From NCBI GenBank assembly GCA_003646045.1, contig QNDV01000002.1, positions 1 through 22,161 on the forward strand: DNA of 22,161 nt, in the 5' to 3' direction. The notes under the pieces are model-generated. The model had not been told where the DNA came from. It ran no database searches and saw only the letters and a program-made list of their open reading frames with translations. The first letter of the stretch is position 1. The number at the start of each line of letters is the position of its first letter. Positions 2,014-22,161 of the stretch are shown here, in pieces. This DNA is from a bacterium. Its GTDB lineage: Bacteria > Krumholzibacteriota > Krumholzibacteria > LZORAL124-64-63. Both the position numbers and the translations under genes were made by a program.

Positions 2014-2973
2014 GTGGCAGCCGACCTTTATCTGGGCATCGATACCGGCGGCACCGCGGCCAAGTTCGTACTCACCGCGGCAGACGGCACCGTGGTCGTG
2101 GAAGGCGAGGTGCCTACGGATTCCGTCCACGCCGCGATTACCCTGGACCGGGTGGCGGCGGCGGTGGGTGCCGGTGACCGCGGATCACTGGTCGGTGTCG
2201 GCCTGGCCTGCGCCGGCATCGTGACTCCCGGCTCGGGTCGCCTGGGACGCTCGCCCAATCTGCCGGGCTGGGAAAACAGTGATCTGGTGGCGCCGCTGGT
2301 CGCCGCTTTCGGACCGGTGCCCGTGACCTTGGTGAACGACGTGAACAGCGCGATCTACGGGGAGTACCGGGCCGGCGCCGGTCGCGGCTGCAGGGACCTG
2401 GTCATGTTGGCGTTGGGCACCGGGGTGGGCGGAGGCATCATCCAGGGCGGGCGCCTGCTGGAGGGCCGTCGCGGTGGCGCCGCCGAACTGGGACACATGG
2501 TCCTGGATCCGCACGGTCCCACCTGTACCTGCGGCAACCGCGGCTGCCTGGAGGCCTGGGCCGGCAGCGTGGCCCTGCTGAAACGGGCCCGCGCCCTGGC
2601 TGCCGACGGGGAACATCACCCGGTGCTGGCGCAACTCGTAGCCGAGCGCGGTGAAGACCTGGAGACCCGCGACCTGGCCCGACTTGCCGACGCCGGTGAT
2701 CAGGACACCCTGGATATCTTCGCCGAGGCGGGCCGCCGACTGGGCCAGGCGGTGGGCAATCTCATCAACACCCTCGATCCGGACCGGGTGATCCTGGGCG
2801 GAGGTGTGGCCCGGGCCGGCGACCTGGTCTTCGGACCCCTGCGAGCCACTTATCCGCCACTCGTTCTCTGTGAAGCCTCGTCACGTATACCGGTCGTGCC
2901 CGCGGAGTTGGGCCCGACGGCCGCCGCGGTGGGTGCGGCCTGGCTGGCCCGCGAACAGGGTGCTGCCGGCTGA
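2014..2973 (+). CDS. ROK-family sugar kinase (glucokinase-like)
   Basis: ROK kinases phosphorylate hexoses such as glucose, mannose or N-acetyl sugars with ATP in the cytoplasm. The 319-residue product has the phosphate-binding DTGGT (10-14), the catalytic Asn108-Asp109 pair in VNDVNSA, the LGTGVGGG loop (134-141), and the ROK zinc site in order: Glu158, His161, then C-T-C-G-N-R-G-C with Cys171, Cys173 and Cys178. There is no N-terminal helix-turn-helix, so it is an enzyme and not a NagC/XylR-type repressor. The start is GTG at 2014, with GGAAGGAG at 2001-2008 as ribosome site. Its stop overlaps the lptD start (TGATG at 2971-2975), so the two are probably translationally coupled. The sugar is not fixed by the sequence; glucokinase is the default guess. 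Confidence 0.9.
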   Translation: MAADLYLGIDTGGTAAKFVLTAADGTVVVEGEVPTDSVHAAITLDRVAAAVGAGDRGSLVGVGLACAGIVTPGSGRLGRSPNLPGWENSDLVAPLVAAFGPVPVTLVNDVNSAIYGEYRAGAGRGCRDLVMLALGTGVGGGIIQGGRLLEGRRGGAAELGHMVLDPHGPTCTCGNRGCLEAWAGSVALLKRARALAADGEHHPVLAQLVAERGEDLETRDLARLADAGDQDTLDIFAEAGRRLGQAVGNLINTLDPDRVILGGGVARAGDLVFGPLRATYPPLVLCEASSRIPVVPAELGPTAAAVGAAWLAREQGAAG

Positions 2974-5900
2974 TGGCCCGGATACGGCACACCTACCCGT
3001 CGGCGCGGCGCGGCAACGCCGACATCCTGGCTGCCCTGGCGGGGGCCCTGGGTGTGCTGCTGGTCTTTCTGGTCTCGCAGCCGGATGCCAGGGCACAGGA
3101 GGATGCCGCTGCCGACGACCATCGCCGCACGGCCTCCCGCGGTTCGGCGGATCGTTTCGAGGACCGTTTCGTGGGTGAGGAACGCGTATCCTGGTTGTTC
3201 GGCAACGTGTTCATCGACCGTGATACGGTCACGGCCAAGGCCGACACTGGCATCGTCTACCGCGATCGTGATGTCTTCGAACTCTTCGGAAACGTGCGTC
3301 TGACCAGCCATGAAGCGGTGGTGACCTGCCGTCGCGCCATCTACGACCGGGCCGCAGGCAAGGGGGATTTCTTCGGCGACGTGCGTATCGTGGAGGGTGA
3401 TGTGGTGGGTACGGGCCGGCGAGGTGAGTTGCGCCGTGCCGGACAGGACCTGAGCCTGATCGGCGACGCCCTGCTGGTGAGTCCGGAATACACAGTGCGA
3501 GCCGACACCATCTTTCGCGATCGCCTGACCGGCCGGGGCGAGGCCTTCGGTCACGTACAGATCATCGAGCCCGGGGGCCGCAACCTGGTCACGGGGGACC
3601 ATGCCCTGTTCCATGCGGACGATGATCTGGCCGAGGTGGACCGCAATCCCATCCTGATCAGTCGCGAGCAGACCGGTGGCCCGCTCGAGAGTACCGCCGG
3701 CAGGATGCTCTTCTATCGCACCGAGAATCGCGTGGTCATGCTCGACTCGGTGCGTATTCGCCAGGGTGCGGTGCGGGCCCGGGGAGACACGGTGGTGGCC
3801 TACGGCCGCGATCGCATGGTGTTGACCGGAGAGCCGGAAGTGAGCCGCGGCGGTACCAATATCATGACCGGTGACGAAATCGAATTCCGCTACGCCGGAG
3901 GGCAGTTGCACCGGGTGATCCTGGTGGGCGATGCGCGCATGGAGGATACGGCCCCCGACAGCCTGGCGGCCATCTACGGCGGCCTGCCCGGAATGGACGT
4001 TCTCGAGGGCGACTCCATCTCCATCGAGTTCGAGGACGAGAAGATACGGCGCAGCGTCGTGATCGGCGATGCCTCGAGCCGCTACACGCCACTGGACCTC
4101 ACGGACGAGGTGGCCACCAACGACATGGTCGGTGACACCATCATCATCTATTTCCGTGACGAACAGGCCCAGCGCGTGGACGTGCGCGGACACATGTCCG
4201 GTACCTACCGTTTTGCCCGCGTAACCGAAATGGAGGAGACCCTGGGTCGATCGCGTCGCCTGGCCGACCTGCTGGCACGCTCGCGCGTGGATAGCAGTGG
4301 CGTCGCGGACGGTGATACGATCTCCAGCGAGGCCGGTGACATGTTGCCGTTGACAGACGTGGATGCGGTGGCCCGCGAGATCGGCCTGGCCCTGGTGGAC
4401 GCGGACACCATGGCCACCCGCGGCACCCTGGTGGACTCGCTGCTCACCGCGGCCCTGGATTCCCTGGCCAGCGCCGGTCTGGATACCAGCCGCTCGGACC
4501 TGGATTTCGATGCAGCGGCACAGATTGTCCGTTACAGCGGTGACAGCGCCGTCTTCGCCATGCGGGACCGCAAGATGGACATCAGGGGTGACGGCAGGCT
4601 CGAGTACGACACCATGGTGCTGACGGCCGCACACATCAAGATGGATACGGACGAACGCGAACTGTACGCCGAGGGTGATCCCCTGGTGGAGGACAGCGAG
4701 ACCATCACCGGTACCCGCATGGGCTACAACTTCGGTCACAAGACCGGCGCGGTGGAGAACGGTGTCACCGCCATGGAGGAGTACTACTACGTGGGCGACG
4801 AGATCAGGCGCTTCGAGGACACAACCATGAAGATCTGTTCGGGCCGCATGACTTCGTGCGACCTGGAGGATCCCCACTACCACTTCTGGTCCGGCAAGAT
4901 GAAGATGCGCATGGGGGACAAGGTGGTGGCGGCACCGGTGGTGATACGCGTGGGCCGGGTCCCGGTCTTCGCCCTGCCCTTCTACTACAAGGCCCTCAAG
5001 ACGGGTCGCCAGTCGGGCATCCTCTTCCCTTCCTTCGATTTCGGCTGGTCCAGTCGCGAGGGCCGCTATATCCGGGATTTCGGCTACTACTGGGCTACCA
5101 ACGACTACATGGATTTCATCTTCGAGGGGGACTACAACGAGCGGCAGGATCTGGGTATGCGCATCAGCAACCGCTACCGCAAGCGTTACGCCTTCAACGG
5201 CGGTATCGACTACAGCCGCAAGATAGGACTGGGCGATGGCAGCACCCTGAGCGACTGGCAGCTGCGCTGGAACCACACCCAGCCCACCCTGTTCGACGAT
5301 TACAGTTTTCGGGCCGAGGTGAAACTGGCCAGTACCACCCTTTCGAGCAACGATCTCGCCGGCAGCAATGACCGGGATGTGGTCAGTGGCCAACTCAAGT
5401 CCAACGTCTCCGTAGCCCGCACTTTTTCCTGGGGAAACATCAACCTCAACGCCAACCGGGACGAGTTTCCCAACGCCGAGGTGGGCAAGCAGCAGTACAA
5501 CATGACGGCCCCGTCGATGTCCCTGGGCTTTCGCCAGTTCTCGTTGCTACCGGAAAAACGTGGTGGGGGACAGGGCAGTTTCCTGGGTAACCTGGGCCGG
5601 GCCACCACTTTCAGCCACCAGTATACGATGCGCGCCAATGAACAGGGCTATGAGCGGCGTACGGTCCGCCAGTATCAGGCTTCGGGCAGTTGGAAACTGG
5701 GTGTGCAGGTTCCGCGCTTCAGTATCTTCGATATCAGGGGCAACGCCAGCGCCGGCCAGCGTTGGCAACGGGACGAGAACAGCGGGTTCGTCTACGATCC
5801 GTCGGACAGCAGCTATTCGCCGGTGGACGAGTTCATGGAAGTGACCACGCCCAGCGTGAACGTAGGGGCCAGCCTGGGCACCAAGCTCTACGGCTTGTTC

Positions 5901-6875
5901 CCCGTGAATCTGGGGGTGGTGCGTACGGTACGCCACACTCTCGAGCTGCGTACCGGTTTGACCCTGCGTCCGGGCCTCTCGGGACACCAGGCCCACAGCA
6001 CCAGCTATTCGTTCAGCCTGGGTAATACCTTCGACGTGAAGTACCTGGCCCAGGGGGCCGATTCGACGCTGACGGAGAAGAAGCTGGACGGCATGCTGGA
6101 CTGGGACCTCTCCACGGCCTACAACCCCAAAGCCGAGCCGGGCCGGCGGTGGTCCGATATCCGCAGCACCCTGCAGATCAAACCCGGCCAGGCGCGATAT
6201 CTGCACCTGCGGGTGAACAACACCATCGACCCCAACAATCTGGCGCTGAAGACCACCGGTTTCACCTATGGGCTGAACTTCGGCGGCAAGATGGATCTGG
6301 GGGATGTGGAGGCGGCTCCGGAACAGGAACGCAATGCGGCCATCGATCGTCTCGGCCTGCCCGACAAGGCCGCCGTCGATACCGCGGCCTTCGATGAGGA
6401 CCCCTTCCTGGCTGCGGACGAGGATGCGCTTTTCAACGGCGAGGAGAACTCATTCGACGAGTTCTATGAACGCCAGGGGCGGCAACAGGGACCGCGCGAT
6501 ACCAAGGATCCCACCGAGGGCGGGCGTTACATCCCCTTCGATTTCGGCACCAACCTGACCTACAACTACACCAACGCCACGGCTACGCGCGAGGGCACCA
6601 AACGCGCCAGCGCCGGCGTCAATTTCAAGATCAACGTGACCCAGAAGTGGCAATTGGGGTACACCGCCCAGTTCGACCTTACGGAGAGTATCCCCATCCG
6701 CCAGCAGTATCGCCTGCATCGGGATCTGCACTGCTGGCGCCTGGAGTTCACGCGCACCATCAGCACCAATGACTCCCAGTTCGGTTTCCGCCTTTATCTG
6801 AACAGCATCCCCGACCTGAAGTTCGCCCGCGGTCGCGAGGACTACATGAGTACCGCAGGTGGTGGCTTCTACTAG
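2973..6875 (+). CDS. lptD: LPS-assembly outer membrane protein LptD, with long N-terminal OstA/LptA-like region
   Basis: LptD is the outer-membrane barrel that, with LptE, inserts lipopolysaccharide into the outer leaflet. The 1300-residue product has a Sec signal (hydrophobic residues 18-35, cleavage likely after A-R-A, 39-41). A long run of OstA/LptA-type beta repeats follows, with recurring units such as LFGNVFIDRDTV and ELFGNVRLTSHEA. The LptD core begins near residue 622, with C-S-G-R-M-T-S-C-D-L-E-D-P-H-Y-H-F (Cys622, Cys629), VPVFALPFYYK and RQSGILFPSFDFGWSSREG. The rest is a beta-barrel ending in F-Y. Cys119 and Cys1254 are the other conserved-looking cysteines and could form inter-domain disulfides as in E. 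coli LptD, though this is inference. Residues about 418-512 form an acidic Ser/Asp/Leu-rich insert between OstA repeats. The protein is far longer than E. coli LptD (784 residues). It overlaps the ROK gene by one base. Confidence 0.9.
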   Translation: MARIRHTYPSARRGNADILAALAGALGVLLVFLVSQPDARAQEDAAADDHRRTASRGSADRFEDRFVGEERVSWLFGNVFIDRDTVTAKADTGIVYRDRDVFELFGNVRLTSHEAVVTCRRAIYDRAAGKGDFFGDVRIVEGDVVGTGRRGELRRAGQDLSLIGDALLVSPEYTVRADTIFRDRLTGRGEAFGHVQIIEPGGRNLVTGDHALFHADDDLAEVDRNPILISREQTGGPLESTAGRMLFYRTENRVVMLDSVRIRQGAVRARGDTVVAYGRDRMVLTGEPEVSRGGTNIMTGDEIEFRYAGGQLHRVILVGDARMEDTAPDSLAAIYGGLPGMDVLEGDSISIEFEDEKIRRSVVIGDASSRYTPLDLTDEVATNDMVGDTIIIYFRDEQAQRVDVRGHMSGTYRFARVTEMEETLGRSRRLADLLARSRVDSSGVADGDTISSEAGDMLPLTDVDAVAREIGLALVDADTMATRGTLVDSLLTAALDSLASAGLDTSRSDLDFDAAAQIVRYSGDSAVFAMRDRKMDIRGDGRLEYDTMVLTAAHIKMDTDERELYAEGDPLVEDSETITGTRMGYNFGHKTGAVENGVTAMEEYYYVGDEIRRFEDTTMKICSGRMTSCDLEDPHYHFWSGKMKMRMGDKVVAAPVVIRVGRVPVFALPFYYKALKTGRQSGILFPSFDFGWSSREGRYIRDFGYYWATNDYMDFIFEGDYNERQDLGMRISNRYRKRYAFNGGIDYSRKIGLGDGSTLSDWQLRWNHTQPTLFDDYSFRAEVKLASTTLSSNDLAGSNDRDVVSGQLKSNVSVARTFSWGNINLNANRDEFPNAEVGKQQYNMTAPSMSLGFRQFSLLPEKRGGGQGSFLGNLGRATTFSHQYTMRANEQGYERRTVRQYQASGSWKLGVQVPRFSIFDIRGNASAGQRWQRDENSGFVYDPSDSSYSPVDEFMEVTTPSVNVGASLGTKLYGLFPVNLGVVRTVRHTLELRTGLTLRPGLSGHQAHSTSYSFSLGNTFDVKYLAQGADSTLTEKKLDGMLDWDLSTAYNPKAEPGRRWSDIRSTLQIKPGQARYLHLRVNNTIDPNNLALKTTGFTYGLNFGGKMDLGDVEAAPEQERNAAIDRLGLPDKAAVDTAAFDEDPFLAADEDALFNGEENSFDEFYERQGRQQGPRDTKDPTEGGRYIPFDFGTNLTYNYTNATATREGTKRASAGVNFKINVTQKWQLGYTAQFDLTESIPIRQQYRLHRDLHCWRLEFTRTISTNDSQFGFRLYLNSIPDLKFARGREDYMSTAGGGFY

Positions 6876-7460: not shown

Positions 7461-7575
7461 GCGGGTGGGAACCAGCGCCGGGTGACGGTGTTGGCGACCT
7501 CTGCCGCGGCGCCCATGTTTACTGGCGGCGACGGCAGGTTCTTGAATCCCGACAACGCCCGAAAGGACTCCCGTG

Positions 7576-8937
7576 ATGACCGAGCGTGAAACGCGCACCG
7601 GACGGATGGCCCTGCTGTTCGTCCTGGCACTGATACTGACGGCGGCGGTGGCGCCGGCCGTGGCCCAGGACAAGGACGAAAACGCCGACTGGAAACAGGT
7701 AACGGTGTTGTACATGTCCGACGTGAAGGGCAAGATCGAACCCTGCGGCTGAAAAACCAATCGCCGCGGCGGGTTGGCCCGGAGGGCCACCTATCTCGAG
7801 TCGATCTGGAACGAAGGCGCCCCGGTCCTGATGCTGGACGGAGGCGATCTATTCGGTCCGCGCAACCAGAACGAGAAACACCAGACGGCCTTCCTGTGCG
7901 AGGTCACCGCCGACTTCGGAACCGATGCCATCGGTCTCGGGGAGCGGGATCTGAACTACGGCCTGGCGTACCTGCAGGCCGTCATGGAGGACCCGGGCCT
8001 GCCCTATACCAATGCCAACGTGCGGGCGGTGAGTACCGGCGAGCTGGTCTGCCCCGAGTACCTGGTGGTAGAAAGGGGCGGTATCCGCTTCGGTATCGTC
8101 AGCGTCCTGGACCCGTCGCACCACATCTTCACCATGACCACGCAGGAAGAGGAATTCGAGGTGGCGGATCCCGTGGCGACGCTGAGGGAACTGTTGCCGC
8201 GGGTGCGCGAAAAAGCCGACACCATCGTCCTGCTGGGGCACCTGGGTGACACCCGCACCGAAGCGGTCCTGGGCGAAGTGAACGGTATCGACGTGGCGGT
8301 GGTGGGGCACAGTCGCCGCAACGTGGACACCGAGCGCCTGGTCGGCGATACGATCCTGCTGAATTCGGCGTACGAAGGTCGTTACATCGGGCGGGCGAAC
8401 ATGTTCTTCCGCAAGAAAGATGGCCGGGTGATGGCCGTCGACGTCATGACCACGCAATTGAACGACAAGGTCGAGGACGACCCGGACATGCTGGCGCGAA
8501 TCGAGGAGTACAAGGCCAGTCTGGTGGCCTTCAAGGAAGCCAAGCGGGCCGCCTATCCCCGTGATCGGGGTGCCAAGAGCGAGAATTTCCTCGGTGACCG
8601 GTCCTGCAAGTCGTGCCACGAGGATGCTTGGACCGCGTACTCCTCATCGCAGCACCGGCAGGCCTACATGACCCTGCGGCGCAAGGGACAGTTCGCAGAG
8701 CCGGAGTGTCTGTCGTGCCACACCACGGGGTACCAGTACCACAACGGCTATGCGGACGAGAGTCCCTACAACCGGCTGGTCAATGTCCAGTGCGAGGCCT
8801 GCCATGGCTACGGCACGGAACACGCCCGCGACGGCAGTTGGATCACCCAGGCCCGGGAGTCCTGCGCAACCTGTCACGATGCAAAGAACAGTCCGGATTT
8901 CGACTATGCGACCTACTGGGAAAAGATCAAACACTAG
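7576..8937 (+). CDS. Periplasmic UshA-like selenoprotein with C-terminal tetrahaem cytochrome domain (TGA at 7750-7752 read as selenocysteine)
   Basis: The full frame is 453 residues with one internal TGA, codon 59. Before it lie a Sec signal (hydrophobic 12-30, AVA-Q cleavage) and the start of a metallophosphatase/5'-nucleotidase-like domain, VLYMSDVKGKIEPCG. After it the same frame continues KTNRRGGLARRATYLES. From memory of the family, relatives read E-P-C-G-C with G-G-L-A-R-R following, so the TGA replaces a Cys. Later domain blocks are DGGDLFG (88-94), GERD (122-125), GHLGD (221-225) and VGHSRRN (243-248). Canonical metal ligands such as D-x-H, GNHE and GHxH are altered, so hydrolase activity is doubtful. 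Four CXXCH haem sites follow: CKSCH 344, CLSCH 378, CEACH 406 and CATCH 430, a cytochrome c554-like domain. The start ATG 7576 has AAGGA at 7563-7567. I recall families named UshA-like (seleno)protein; I could not check this. The redox role and substrate are unknown. Confidence 0.85.
7771..7792 (+). promoter_or_regulatory. SECIS-like hairpin downstream of the in-frame TGA
   Basis: The arms at 7775-7780 (TGGCCC) and 7784-7789 (GGGCCA) pair as six base pairs around the loop GGA (7781-7783). Beyond a single bulged T at 7774, G73-C90, G72-C91 and a G71-T92 wobble extend the stem. Bacterial SECIS elements sit in the coding sequence just after the UGA and have a G-containing apical loop roughly 16-37 bases downstream, and E. 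coli fdhF also has a bulged U. Here the loop starts 28 bases past the UGA. The hairpin codes for the conserved L-A-R-R-A, so codon constraint could also produce it. Confidence 0.6.
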
Positions 8938-9733
8938 CCTGGCCCGGGGCCCGATCCTCCTGTTGCTGGCGGCGCTCCTGCTGGGAGCGCCGCCGGTGTC
9001 GGCACTGGACGTGTTCACCTTGTGGCGGCAGCCCGGTATCCCCCTGGCCATCAGCGAGGGGGACTGGGTGGACTACCGCACCCAGGTCATGGCGGCGGGC
9101 CGCCGGGAACACGGTATTACGCGCCTGGCCTGTCTGGACCGTGCGGCCGGAACCGACAATGAGACCTGGGTTCTGGAGATCCTGCCCCTGGAGGAGCATC
9201 CCGACGGTACCCGCACCCCCGTACCGGGAGAAGGTGTGCGGCTGCGTGTGGACCGCAATCTGGCTGCCAGGCAGGGCAGCCTGCTGGACGCGGTGCGCGA
9301 GGCCCGCCACTGGCAGGATGGTCAGGTCACGGTCCTGACCCGGCAGGAGCTGCGGGAGCACCCCCTGGTGTCGGCCTCGCTGGAGGATTCCTTCCTGGCC
9401 GGCGACGTCCAGGAACAGGGGCCCACCACGCGGGTGGTGCAGAAGCGGGAACTGCTGTGCCGACAAATGGTCCTGACGGCCGCCGACACGTCGGTGGCGG
9501 ATCTGCCGGCAGGGCGCATGATCCAGGAAACACTGCGGGAGATATCCGTGGCTATCCACCCGGAGGTGCCGTTCCTGGGGCTGGTCTATGTGGCGGAGAG
9601 GGTCCGGGCCGAATCACGCCTGGACCCGCCCAGTGGTCGCTTCAGCCCGCCGGCACCCCAGGTACGCGTGGAAATCATGGAACTGGTGGGGTTCGGCAGC
9701 GGTGCGACACCGACCTTCCCCGCCCCCAATTGA
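8906..9733 (+). CDS. Secreted protein of unknown function
   Basis: I do not recognise the family. The 275-residue product has a basic N-terminus, a hydrophobic stretch (residues 17-28) and a likely signal cleavage after V-S-A (31-33), so it should be periplasmic or surface-located. The mature part is mixed alpha/beta in look, has two cysteines, no repeats and no known motif, and ends in a Pro/Gly-rich tail. The ATG at 8906 overlaps the end of the selenoprotein gene by 32 bases. It is chosen because it gives a compact signal peptide, but no good ribosome site precedes it, so translational coupling is likely. An in-frame ATG further upstream would put a long Arg/Pro-rich shadow of the haem domain in front of the signal and is rejected. 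The close linkage suggests work in the same periplasmic process as the selenoprotein. Confidence 0.75.
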   Translation: MRPTGKRSNTSLARGPILLLLAALLLGAPPVSALDVFTLWRQPGIPLAISEGDWVDYRTQVMAAGRREHGITRLACLDRAAGTDNETWVLEILPLEEHPDGTRTPVPGEGVRLRVDRNLAARQGSLLDAVREARHWQDGQVTVLTRQELREHPLVSASLEDSFLAGDVQEQGPTTRVVQKRELLCRQMVLTAADTSVADLPAGRMIQETLREISVAIHPEVPFLGLVYVAERVRAESRLDPPSGRFSPPAPQVRVEIMELVGFGSGATPTFPAPN

Positions 9734-19582: not shown

Positions 19583-22161
19583 ATGACACGTTGCCTGGCA
19601 TTGCTGATCCTGCTGGCGGGAGCTGTTCCCGCCGTCGCCGCCGACTGGGTATCGCCGCGGGGGTTGCCGCCGGGTCCGCCACGCATCGAGACGTCGGTGG
19701 AGGCGCCGGGCCGCACGCGGGTGACGGTGGATGTACCGGGGTTCTTTACCGCCGAACAGGAAATCGAGGGACGTGTTTTCGCCCGCGTCGGCGTACCCGG
19801 TACCTGGCCCACCCTGGAAGCAGGACATCCCGAACTGCCCCGGCTGACCCTGCAACTGCGCCTGCCGTCCGCGGGTACTCCCCGTCTGAGGATCGTGTCC
19901 GAGTATTGGCGCGAGTTGGCCTCCGCGCCCGTGCTTCCTTCCCGTGGCAACATCCCGCGCACCATGGACCCGCTGCAAGTACCACGGGCAACCGGGCCGT
20001 CGTACGCTAGCGGCGTCTACCCCGCCGCAGGCCATAACCTGGAGCGGCCGTACCTGCTGCGTGGCGAACGGGGTGTGGGCCTGACAGTTCATCCCCTGCG
20101 CTGGGACGCGGACCGGGGTCGCCTGCTGGTGCTGGAGCGCCTCGAACTGGAAGTGGTCACCGAAGGCAGTGGCGGCGTCAATGAGCGGCGACGGGCCACG
20201 GGGCGGGACCGGGTATTCGAGATTCTGGCCACGCGGCGTTTCGCGGACCGGAAACCGGTGACCAAGTACGCCGAGGTAAACACCGGCGGCCGCATGCTGG
20301 TGGTAACGGCACCGGAATTCGAGCTGGACCTGACGGAGTTCGTCCAATGGAAACGCGAGCGGGGCCTGACGGTGGAGGTGGCTACCACCGTGCAATTGGG
20401 TGGGACGGTCGAGTCGATCTCCGCCGCGGTCGCCACCCGCTACGGTGAACCCGCGGGCCTGACCTACCTGGTGCTGGTGGGGGATATCGACCAGGTGCCC
20501 ACCCACGCCGGACTTTTCGAGGGCGCGGACAACGATACGCGCTATGCCATGGTCCAGGGCGATGACCTCTATCCCGACCTGTTCGTTTCACGGGTGTCGG
20601 CGCGGGATCGGGACGAACTGCTGGTGCAGCTGAACAAGTTTGTCCGCTACGAGCGCGATCCCGACCCTGACGGCGCCTGGTACTCACACGCAGTGGGCGT
20701 CGCGTCCATTCTGGGTGACCCCACCGATGCCGAGCGTGCCGACTGGCTGCGCGACGACCTGCTGGGCTACAACTTCACGGCGGTTGATCGTCTCTACGAG
20801 CCGTCGGCCACCGCCGCGGCCATCATCGCCGCCCTGGATGAGGGCCGCAGTTTCATGAACTACCTGGGTCACGGTTCAGGCGTCTCATGGTCCAATCCGG
20901 CTTTCGGGCTGGGTGAAGTGGCAAACCTGGCCAACGACCACCGTGTGCCCTGGATCATCGATGTGAGTTGTGCCAACGGCCGGTTCTCGTCGCCCGAGTG
21001 CTTCGCCGAAGCCTGGCTGCGCGCCGGTACCCCCGAGGCGCCCCGCGGCGCCCTCGCCATGTACAGCGCGTCGACCACCACGCCCTGGATACCGCCTACG
21101 CTGATGCAGGAGGAAACCACCGACCTGCTGGTATCCGGGCGTGCCCTGGAGATCGGTGCCCTCTGCCAGCACGGCATCATGAAGGTACTCGACAACTATC
21201 CCGGCGAAATCGGCCGACAGTTGGTGGAGCAGTACAACATCCTGGGGGATTGCTCACTGCAGGTCCGTACGCGGCGGCCACGACCGCTGGAGGTATCCCA
21301 CGCGGGAACGCTGGCGGTGGGCGTACCGGTTTTCGCGGTACAGGTGGACACGGTGGGAGCCACGGTGACCCTGACGGCGCCGGGGCGCCTGCTGGGTTCG
21401 GCTGTAACCGACGAACTGGGTCGGGCGACCATATACCTGTCCGATCCTCCTGCCGAGCCGGGCGAACTGGTGCTGACGGTGACGGGCCCGGACCTGTTGC
21501 CGCACCGGACGATGCTGCCGATAGTGCGTCCCCTCCTGGTGACGGCCACGCCGCTGGCATTGCCCGTGGGCCAAACCACCAGCCTGATTGTGGGCACCGG
21601 CGTCGCGGAATCCGTAGCCGGCCAGGTCGAGGTGACGGTGGAGGGCTGGGGTGTCGCCGGTGTGACCAGCACGGTGACGCCAGGCGGTTCAGTGGAACTG
21701 GGAGTGACCCCGGTCTACGGCGAGAACCTCTCCCTCTGGGTGCGGGATGCCACCACGGGACAGCCACTGCATCACCAGCTGTTGCCGGTCACCGGCGCGG
21801 TCGTCCTTGCGGATCCCGGTGTCCTGGCGGCGGCGCCTGCCGTCGGCATGTTCGGATCACTGGCACCCGGGACCGCGGGCGTGGTGCGGGCCTGGGCGGG
21901 TGAGCCCGGAGCCGCCCTGGGATTGCGGGGCAACGGCGTCGACACGCTGGTGGTGGCGACGGGCGATACGGTCGTCGCGCGGATCGTGCCGCTGCGACCG
22001 GGTCTGGTGCAGGCGGCGGTACTCAAGCCGGGTCGCCTGGTCCACGAAGTGGCGGTGTCGGTGGTGATGGCTCGCGGCACGCTGGCCGGCACCATCGTGC
22101 CCCTTGGGGGCGGGTCCGGTATAGGACGTGCCCGGGTCTGGATAACACGTGTGGGCGAGGA
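19583..22161 (+). CDS. Gingipain-like cysteine peptidase, C25 family (3' end missing)
   Basis: A secreted cysteine endopeptidase. 859 codons are visible and the frame is still open at the right edge. Residues 1-20 form a signal peptide (cleavage after A-V-A-A). An N-terminal propeptide-like region follows, with PELPRLTLQLRLP as in C25 propeptides. The catalytic domain starts near residue 236 (RMLVVTAPEFE), has VGDIDQVP (299-306), the active-site His430 in NYLGHGSG, and the active-site Cys463 in IDVSCANGRF. From about residue 570 on, beta-sandwich (Ig-like) segments follow, with repeated T-V/V-T-L strands. A C-terminal sorting signal, if any (T9SS type), would lie beyond the window. The start ATG 19583 has GGAG at 19573-19576. 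It is recognisable as C25 by the His and Cys motifs; the substrate is unknown. Confidence 0.9.
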   Translation, partial: MTRCLALLILLAGAVPAVAADWVSPRGLPPGPPRIETSVEAPGRTRVTVDVPGFFTAEQEIEGRVFARVGVPGTWPTLEAGHPELPRLTLQLRLPSAGTPRLRIVSEYWRELASAPVLPSRGNIPRTMDPLQVPRATGPSYASGVYPAAGHNLERPYLLRGERGVGLTVHPLRWDADRGRLLVLERLELEVVTEGSGGVNERRRATGRDRVFEILATRRFADRKPVTKYAEVNTGGRMLVVTAPEFELDLTEFVQWKRERGLTVEVATTVQLGGTVESISAAVATRYGEPAGLTYLVLVGDIDQVPTHAGLFEGADNDTRYAMVQGDDLYPDLFVSRVSARDRDELLVQLNKFVRYERDPDPDGAWYSHAVGVASILGDPTDAERADWLRDDLLGYNFTAVDRLYEPSATAAAIIAALDEGRSFMNYLGHGSGVSWSNPAFGLGEVANLANDHRVPWIIDVSCANGRFSSPECFAEAWLRAGTPEAPRGALAMYSASTTTPWIPPTLMQEETTDLLVSGRALEIGALCQHGIMKVLDNYPGEIGRQLVEQYNILGDCSLQVRTRRPRPLEVSHAGTLAVGVPVFAVQVDTVGATVTLTAPGRLLGSAVTDELGRATIYLSDPPAEPGELVLTVTGPDLLPHRTMLPIVRPLLVTATPLALPVGQTTSLIVGTGVAESVAGQVEVTVEGWGVAGVTSTVTPGGSVELGVTPVYGENLSLWVRDATTGQPLHHQLLPVTGAVVLADPGVLAAAPAVGMFGSLAPGTAGVVRAWAGEPGAALGLRGNGVDTLVVATGDTVVARIVPLRPGLVQAAVLKPGRLVHEVAVSVVMARGTLAGTIVPLGGGSGIGRARVWITRVGE

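Follow-up and report, generated by a model that had tools for sequence, protein, structure and literature searches.

A UshA-like PCGU protein with a tetrahaem domain, probably a selenoprotein, in a Krumholzibacteria-type bacterium

Introduction

The stretch of DNA considered here (hereafter the window) comprises positions 1 to 22,161 of contig QNDV01000002.1 in assembly GCA_003646045.1, from a Krumholzibacteria-type bacterium. On its + strand, which also carries the overlapping downstream gene described below, lies a gene (7576..8937) with a TGA codon inside its reading frame at 7750-7752. Is this TGA a stop, an error, or a codon for selenocysteine (Sec), and, if Sec is inserted, what might the protein do? 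A preliminary description of the locus had proposed a probable selenoprotein with four haem sites. The comparisons presented here indicate that the gene very probably encodes a genuine Sec-decoding selenoprotein of the UshA-like PCGU family (NCBIfam NF041198). This selenoprotein family has already been named, so the protein is not of an unknown kind, and the gene adds a member to it.

Results

When the TGA is translated, the frame from 7576 to 8937 gives a protein of 453 residues terminated by a TAG. The sole in-frame TGA is codon 59, which we read as Sec59 of a PCGU motif. As the preliminary description had claimed, one continuous protein frame spans this codon: a signal-peptide-like start and E-P-C-G stand 5' of it, and K-T-N-R-R-G-G-L-A-R-R, a domain of about 260 residues, and four C-terminal CxxCH motifs stand 3' of it. 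A putative ribosome-binding site, GAAAGGA (7561..7567), lies upstream of the ATG at 7576, and a signal peptide region assigned by eye (7576..7668) has a basic start, a hydrophobic stretch and an A-x-A-Q end, with residues 3-30 modelled as a helix. The earlier statement that TGA is an ordinary stop here (14 of 18 genes) holds with slightly different counts, since the 17 listed gene ends in the window use TGA 13 times and TAG four times; genome-wide reassignment of UGA is thereby ruled out. Scans of the window with Rfam and for tRNAs returned no match over threshold and no tRNA, respectively.

With the TGA read as U, the protein scores 280.4 bits against NF041198 (UshA_like_PCGU, "UshA-like (seleno)protein"), for which the cut-off is 275; a form beginning downstream of the TGA reaches 226 bits. 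The profile covers the haem part of the protein as well, the C-terminal piece matching profile positions 352-519. Two relatives, L001 (283.3) and the cysteine (Cys) gene L067 (276.4), also exceed the cut-off. Among 80 genomes of the phylum, a match to the profile at E <= 0.001 is present in all 80 and also in 9 of 14 control genomes; over the cut-off, the counts are 14 of 80 and 0 of 14. Related proteins appear in published compilations: PMC2398784 includes a COG0737 UshA-like group with the motif CxU, 76 Sec sequences and 92 Cys homologues, PMC13188914 catalogues NF041198 with CxU, and PMC9312934 catalogues UshA-like CxU proteins. The words "cytochrome" and "heme" are absent from the main text of PMC2398784, and searches of open-licence PubMed Central brought up no title announcing work on the function of the UshA-like PCGU family.

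If codon 59 encodes Sec, relatives would be expected to carry either TGA or a Cys codon at this site, and the preliminary description had suggested looking for such an alternation. In loci that partly share genomes, the site within the motif is TGA in 54 distinct loci (the window included) and a Cys codon in 13. The loci counted are a subset of the matching genes in the 80 phylum genomes. Six repeats (L010, L024, L030, L038, L088 and L089) were dropped before both these counts and the hairpin counts below, as were the loci of sel genes, the distant L005, in which the motif was not found, and loci that failed the pattern or the minimum length, such as L078, which begins at the site. A wider motif pattern caught three loci (L066, L019 and L025) that a narrower one did not; two of these, L019 and L025, read ECGU. 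We then aligned 50 sequences (alignment A1), of which 38 come from the 67 loci (the window among these) and 12 from the 120 listed database proteins. The residue at the site is Cys or Sec in all 39 rows that reach it, the rows having been picked from loci in which the motif script looked for U or C at that position, whereas the metal-ligand positions vary.

All four haem motifs are present in 50 of the 54 Sec loci; in three of the others (L025, L059 and L068) the end of the stretch truncates the gene, and the gene in L087 stops short of such a domain. Among the 13 Cys loci, four haem motifs occur in two (L067 and L069) and no haem motif in the other eleven. These eleven haem-less relatives (L011, L014, L015, L018, L022, L023, L027, L031, L033, L035 and L037), from the same phylum set, share an SCGC motif. 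Among the best 120 of 592 database homologues, some of which are named 5'-nucleotidase-family protein, multiheme or c554-like cytochrome, or hypothetical protein, the site is reached only by P0007, which has Cys. That the other 119 lack the site is what would be expected if gene callers stop at the TGA.

Just 3' of the UGA, at 7772..7791, lies a hairpin with a loop guanosine that resembles a bacterial selenocysteine insertion sequence (SECIS), supported by wobble covariation and a codon-usage excess; binding by SelB is predicted. Its core consists of GGCCC (7776-7780), the loop GGA (7781-7783) and GGGCC (7784-7788), 24-36 nucleotides 3' of the TGA, and beneath it is a short GGT/ACC lower stem with T7775 unpaired. 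The element may resemble the fdhF hairpin of E. coli. Numbered from 0 after the TGA, pair 23-35 (window 7776-7788) links two third-codon positions. It is paired in 51 of the 54 Sec genes, where shuffling gave a mean of 31.5 and reached 51 in none of 5000 shuffles, and the pairs are of several types (G-C 28, G-U 8, U-G 6, C-G 5, U-A 2 and A-U 2). The result was similar in a reduced set of 32 Sec loci below 65% identity (29 paired; shuffle mean 17.7; 0/5000). The other wobble-wobble pair, 26-32 (window 7779-7785), is kept in 53 of 54 genes (shuffle mean 51.1; 6/5000). All five core pairs are Watson-Crick in 32 of the 54 Sec genes, compared with 7.1 expected from each gene's codon usage. The loop guanosines are supplied by the first Arg codon. 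This codon is CGG in 50 of 54 Sec genes and in 1 of 13 Cys genes; in the reduced set it is CGG in 28 of 32, where CGG makes up 29% of other Arg codons. Support for the hairpin thus comes from the upper stem, mainly from pair 23-35 and less from pair 26-32.

We next asked whether related organisms possess Sec machinery, which we scored in four Krumholzibacteria-type relatives (G001-G004, the genomes of loci L001-L004), the 80 phylum genomes and the 14 controls. Among the four relatives, SelA and SelD exceed the cut-off in all, and SelB and tRNA-Sec in three each; the genome below the cut-off for both of these, G002, has a partial SelB. The corresponding counts in the 14 controls are SelA 1, SelB 2, SelD 2 and tRNA-Sec 5. 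SelA is over the cut-off in 77 of the 80 phylum genomes and matched in 78. The two genomes with no SelA match (G051 and G071) have SelB, SelD (with TGA) and tRNA-Sec over threshold, so the missing SelA probably reflects incompleteness. As a separate observation, the selenophosphate synthase SelD carries an in-frame TGA of its own in 6 of 6 genomes searched (L044-L047, L094 and L095).

Several points weigh against the reading of the TGA as Sec. Covariation in the lower stem is not significant among the 54 Sec genes: pair 21-36 is formed in 22 (shuffle mean 18.3; 266 of 5000 shuffles reach that), pair 20-37 in 31 (mean 28.0; 898 of 5000) and pair 19-38 in 49 (mean 49.0). Like those for the upper stem, these shuffle figures take no account of common descent, nor do the binomial figures, so that significance is overstated. 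The Cys genes cannot serve as a control for the hairpin core because their amino acids differ (0 of 13 seen, 0.0 expected). According to PMC12013277, SECIS elements of bacteria resist easy definition and predicted SECIS-like structures increase with GC content. Because GC-rich DNA yields more such predictions, the tests of codon usage and of covariation are important here; the former meets the objection in part. In addition, the evidence for sel genes comes from related genomes. Finally, the window protein exceeds the NF041198 cut-off by just 5.4 bits, and some relatives fall below it (P0007, 256.6; L084, 217.4; the haem-less L011, 172.6).

What kind of protein surrounds the Sec residue? Residues ~39-323 (7690..8544) form a calcineurin-like domain of the UshA/CD73/SoxB N-terminal type, recognised by PF00149 (21.8 bits; cut-off 21.5), fold matches and alignment to a 5'-nucleotidase. 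Enzymes of the UshA/CD73 type carry the metal and catalytic motifs D-x-H, GNH and GH-x-H. The set is incomplete in the window protein, which is changed at K51, E123, R124 and R247 in the alignment to 5'-nucleotidase. Because these metal and catalytic positions are changed, we consider that the domain has probably lost its nucleotidase role. No C-terminal 5'-nucleotidase domain is found among the Pfam matches at E <= 0.001; the C-terminus instead matches the cytochrome c554-type family PF13435 (47.7 bits; cut-off 20.8). This tetrahaem region (8605..8877) contains the motifs CKSCH (residues 344-348), CLSCH (378-382), CEACH (406-410) and CATCH (430-434), and the Cys and His columns of the motifs show conservation of 90% or more across the 50 aligned rows. 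The four-haem c-type domain named in the preliminary description is thus borne out.

The selenoprotein gene overlaps a second gene (8906..9733), which encodes a beta-rich protein of 275 residues, judged by eye to be secreted. This gene can start at the ATG at 8906, within the last codons of the selenoprotein gene, giving an overlap of 32 nucleotides. Earlier in-frame ATGs are present at 8750 and 8879, and the start at 8906 fits the 275-277 residues of database homologues. A protein search found 201 homologues at E <= 1e-5, the best 120 of which range from 232 to 296 residues in length and lack a precomputed Pfam domain; the window protein itself has no match in Pfam (E up to 0.1) or NCBIfam (E up to 0.001). 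Residues C76 and C185 are invariant in 44 aligned rows. Homologues (E <= 0.001) follow 35 of the 53 other Sec loci, several of the remainder having little flank. The structural model is confident (predicted local distance difference test score 89.2), and gives weak matches in the PDB (ApoB barrel, ependymin-type, LmcA, DUF1329 and LolA/LolB), with a best E of 2e-4, a template modelling score to the query of 0.31 and a root-mean-square deviation of 12. Given these weak matches, we treat a LolA/B-like fold as a lead.

The wider gene order, folC, ROK kinase, lptD, HU, selenoprotein gene, secreted protein and exonuclease, is conserved in L002 and L003, with accD additionally at the head in L002. 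The L001 contig begins near the selenoprotein gene and keeps the order from there onward; L004 keeps it at lower identity, with a weakly similar secreted-protein neighbour. Elsewhere in the window are an LptD-type protein of 1300 residues (2973-6875), with LptD_N/OstA-like matches near its N-terminus, and a peptidase family C25 (gingipain-type) protein with a propeptide and a C-terminal domain (19583-22159), which runs off the window end.

Discussion

How might such a protein work? From its conservation and covariation, we propose that the hairpin at 7772-7791 would allow SelB and tRNA-Sec to decode the UGA at 7750-7752. The product would be exported and would carry four c-type haems, given its signal peptide and CxxCH motifs. 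Sec59, which comes after the first metal-ligand motif, is the likely reactive group. Next to what was once the metal site, it may attack or reduce a small molecule of the periplasm (perhaps a thiol or a compound of sulfur or selenium) and may exchange electrons with the haems. The selenoprotein is probably produced together with the overlapping downstream protein. We lean slightly towards a redox mechanism involving Sec and haems; the redox role, the substrate and the partnership are what we infer from these features. A fuller proposal is that the protein is a periplasmic oxidoreductase that depends on Sec, is coupled to the haems and has a disarmed UshA/SoxB-type domain as its scaffold, working with the overlapping LolA/B-like secreted partner near the outer membrane; we put this forward tentatively, as a scheme more apt to fail than to hold in all its parts. 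The preliminary description had envisaged a redox-active Cys-Gly-Sec motif. The Sec site of that motif is conserved, but the Cys is not obligatory, as it is replaced by Ala in three relatives (L084, L086 and L090), whose motif is PAGU and which retain the TGA and four haem motifs. These relatives weaken the case for a Cys-Sec redox pair and suggest the chemistry of a lone Sec. If the fuller proposal is true, it would add an enzyme chemistry new to the phosphoesterase fold, together with a hitherto undescribed system of two genes acting in the periplasm.

Alternatively, the protein could be a real selenoprotein that is still a metal-dependent hydrolase of the UshA/SoxB type, with Sec as a metal ligand or in a structural role and the haems serving another purpose. 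Metal-dependent activity remains conceivable because four metal-site positions are mostly kept in the alignment (D49 in 32 of 39 rows, D91 in 44 of 50, H222 and H245 each in 43 of 50). Other positions argue the opposite: the DxH motif retains its His in 2 of 39 rows, Glu replaces the Asn of GNH in 42 of 50 and the last His persists in 6 of 50, and the C-terminal region is a cytochrome c554-type domain with conserved haem motifs. Among the possible mechanisms, we therefore consider a hydrolase a minority prospect.

A different alternative is that translation begins after the TGA, at the TTG at 7774-7776, giving a shorter haem protein with neither export signal nor motif. The preliminary description had noted such a late start, at about 7774, and gene callers do produce this form, consistent with the 119 listed homologues that lack the site. 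However, attachment of c-type haem requires export. Moreover, the residues preceding the TGA align throughout the family, and the TTG itself sits inside the conserved hairpin with its covarying wobble bases, so that we judge the late start very improbable. Least probable of all, to the point of being negligible, is the explanation once regarded as the main rival, that the TGA is a sequencing error or a point mutation (a pseudogene) in a gene whose intact form has Cys: Cys homologues do exist (13 loci and P0007), but 54 loci, including the 32 of the set below 65% identity, share a TGA at this codon, which makes a single mutation or error untenable, and the hairpin covaries, the frame is open downstream and the haem motifs are conserved.

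Taken as a Sec-decoding gene, the locus bears on annotation as well as on function. Published lists, as far as their family entries go, name the UshA-like PCGU family and give no function. The data gathered here indicate a phosphoesterase domain that has been altered, that has Sec close to where the metal site was and that is joined to four haems; the overlapping partner gene is conserved. Automatic gene calling hides the selenoprotein, as the 119 of 120 listed homologues (592 found) with no Sec site illustrate, and correcting the gene calls would restore an exported selenoprotein in Krumholzibacteria-type genomes. The preliminary description had envisaged an unusual periplasmic electron-transfer protein; its reading of Sec and of four haem sites is supported, while the family, NF041198 or UshA-like CxU, was known.

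How, then, does the protein compare with known systems? It differs from the UshA/CD73 5'-nucleotidases at the DxH His, at the GNH Asn and His and at the last His, its C-terminus is a cytochrome domain, its Sec comes after motif I, and it scores 40.5 bits against the UshA equivalog NF007109, where 600 are required. Nor does it belong with the SoxB thiosulfohydrolases (2wdf, 4uwq), scoring 67.1 bits against TIGR04486 (cut-off 550). With cytochrome c554 (PF13435; 1bvb) it has the C-terminal tetrahaem domain in common, but here that domain is fused to a phosphoesterase-fold domain with Sec, and the score against NF043010 is 31.3 bits compared with a cut-off of 400. The closest likeness is to NF041198, with which it shares the PCGU motif, the UshA-like domain and the haem part, although at 453 residues it is shorter than the 519-position profile and its score lies marginally above the cut-off.
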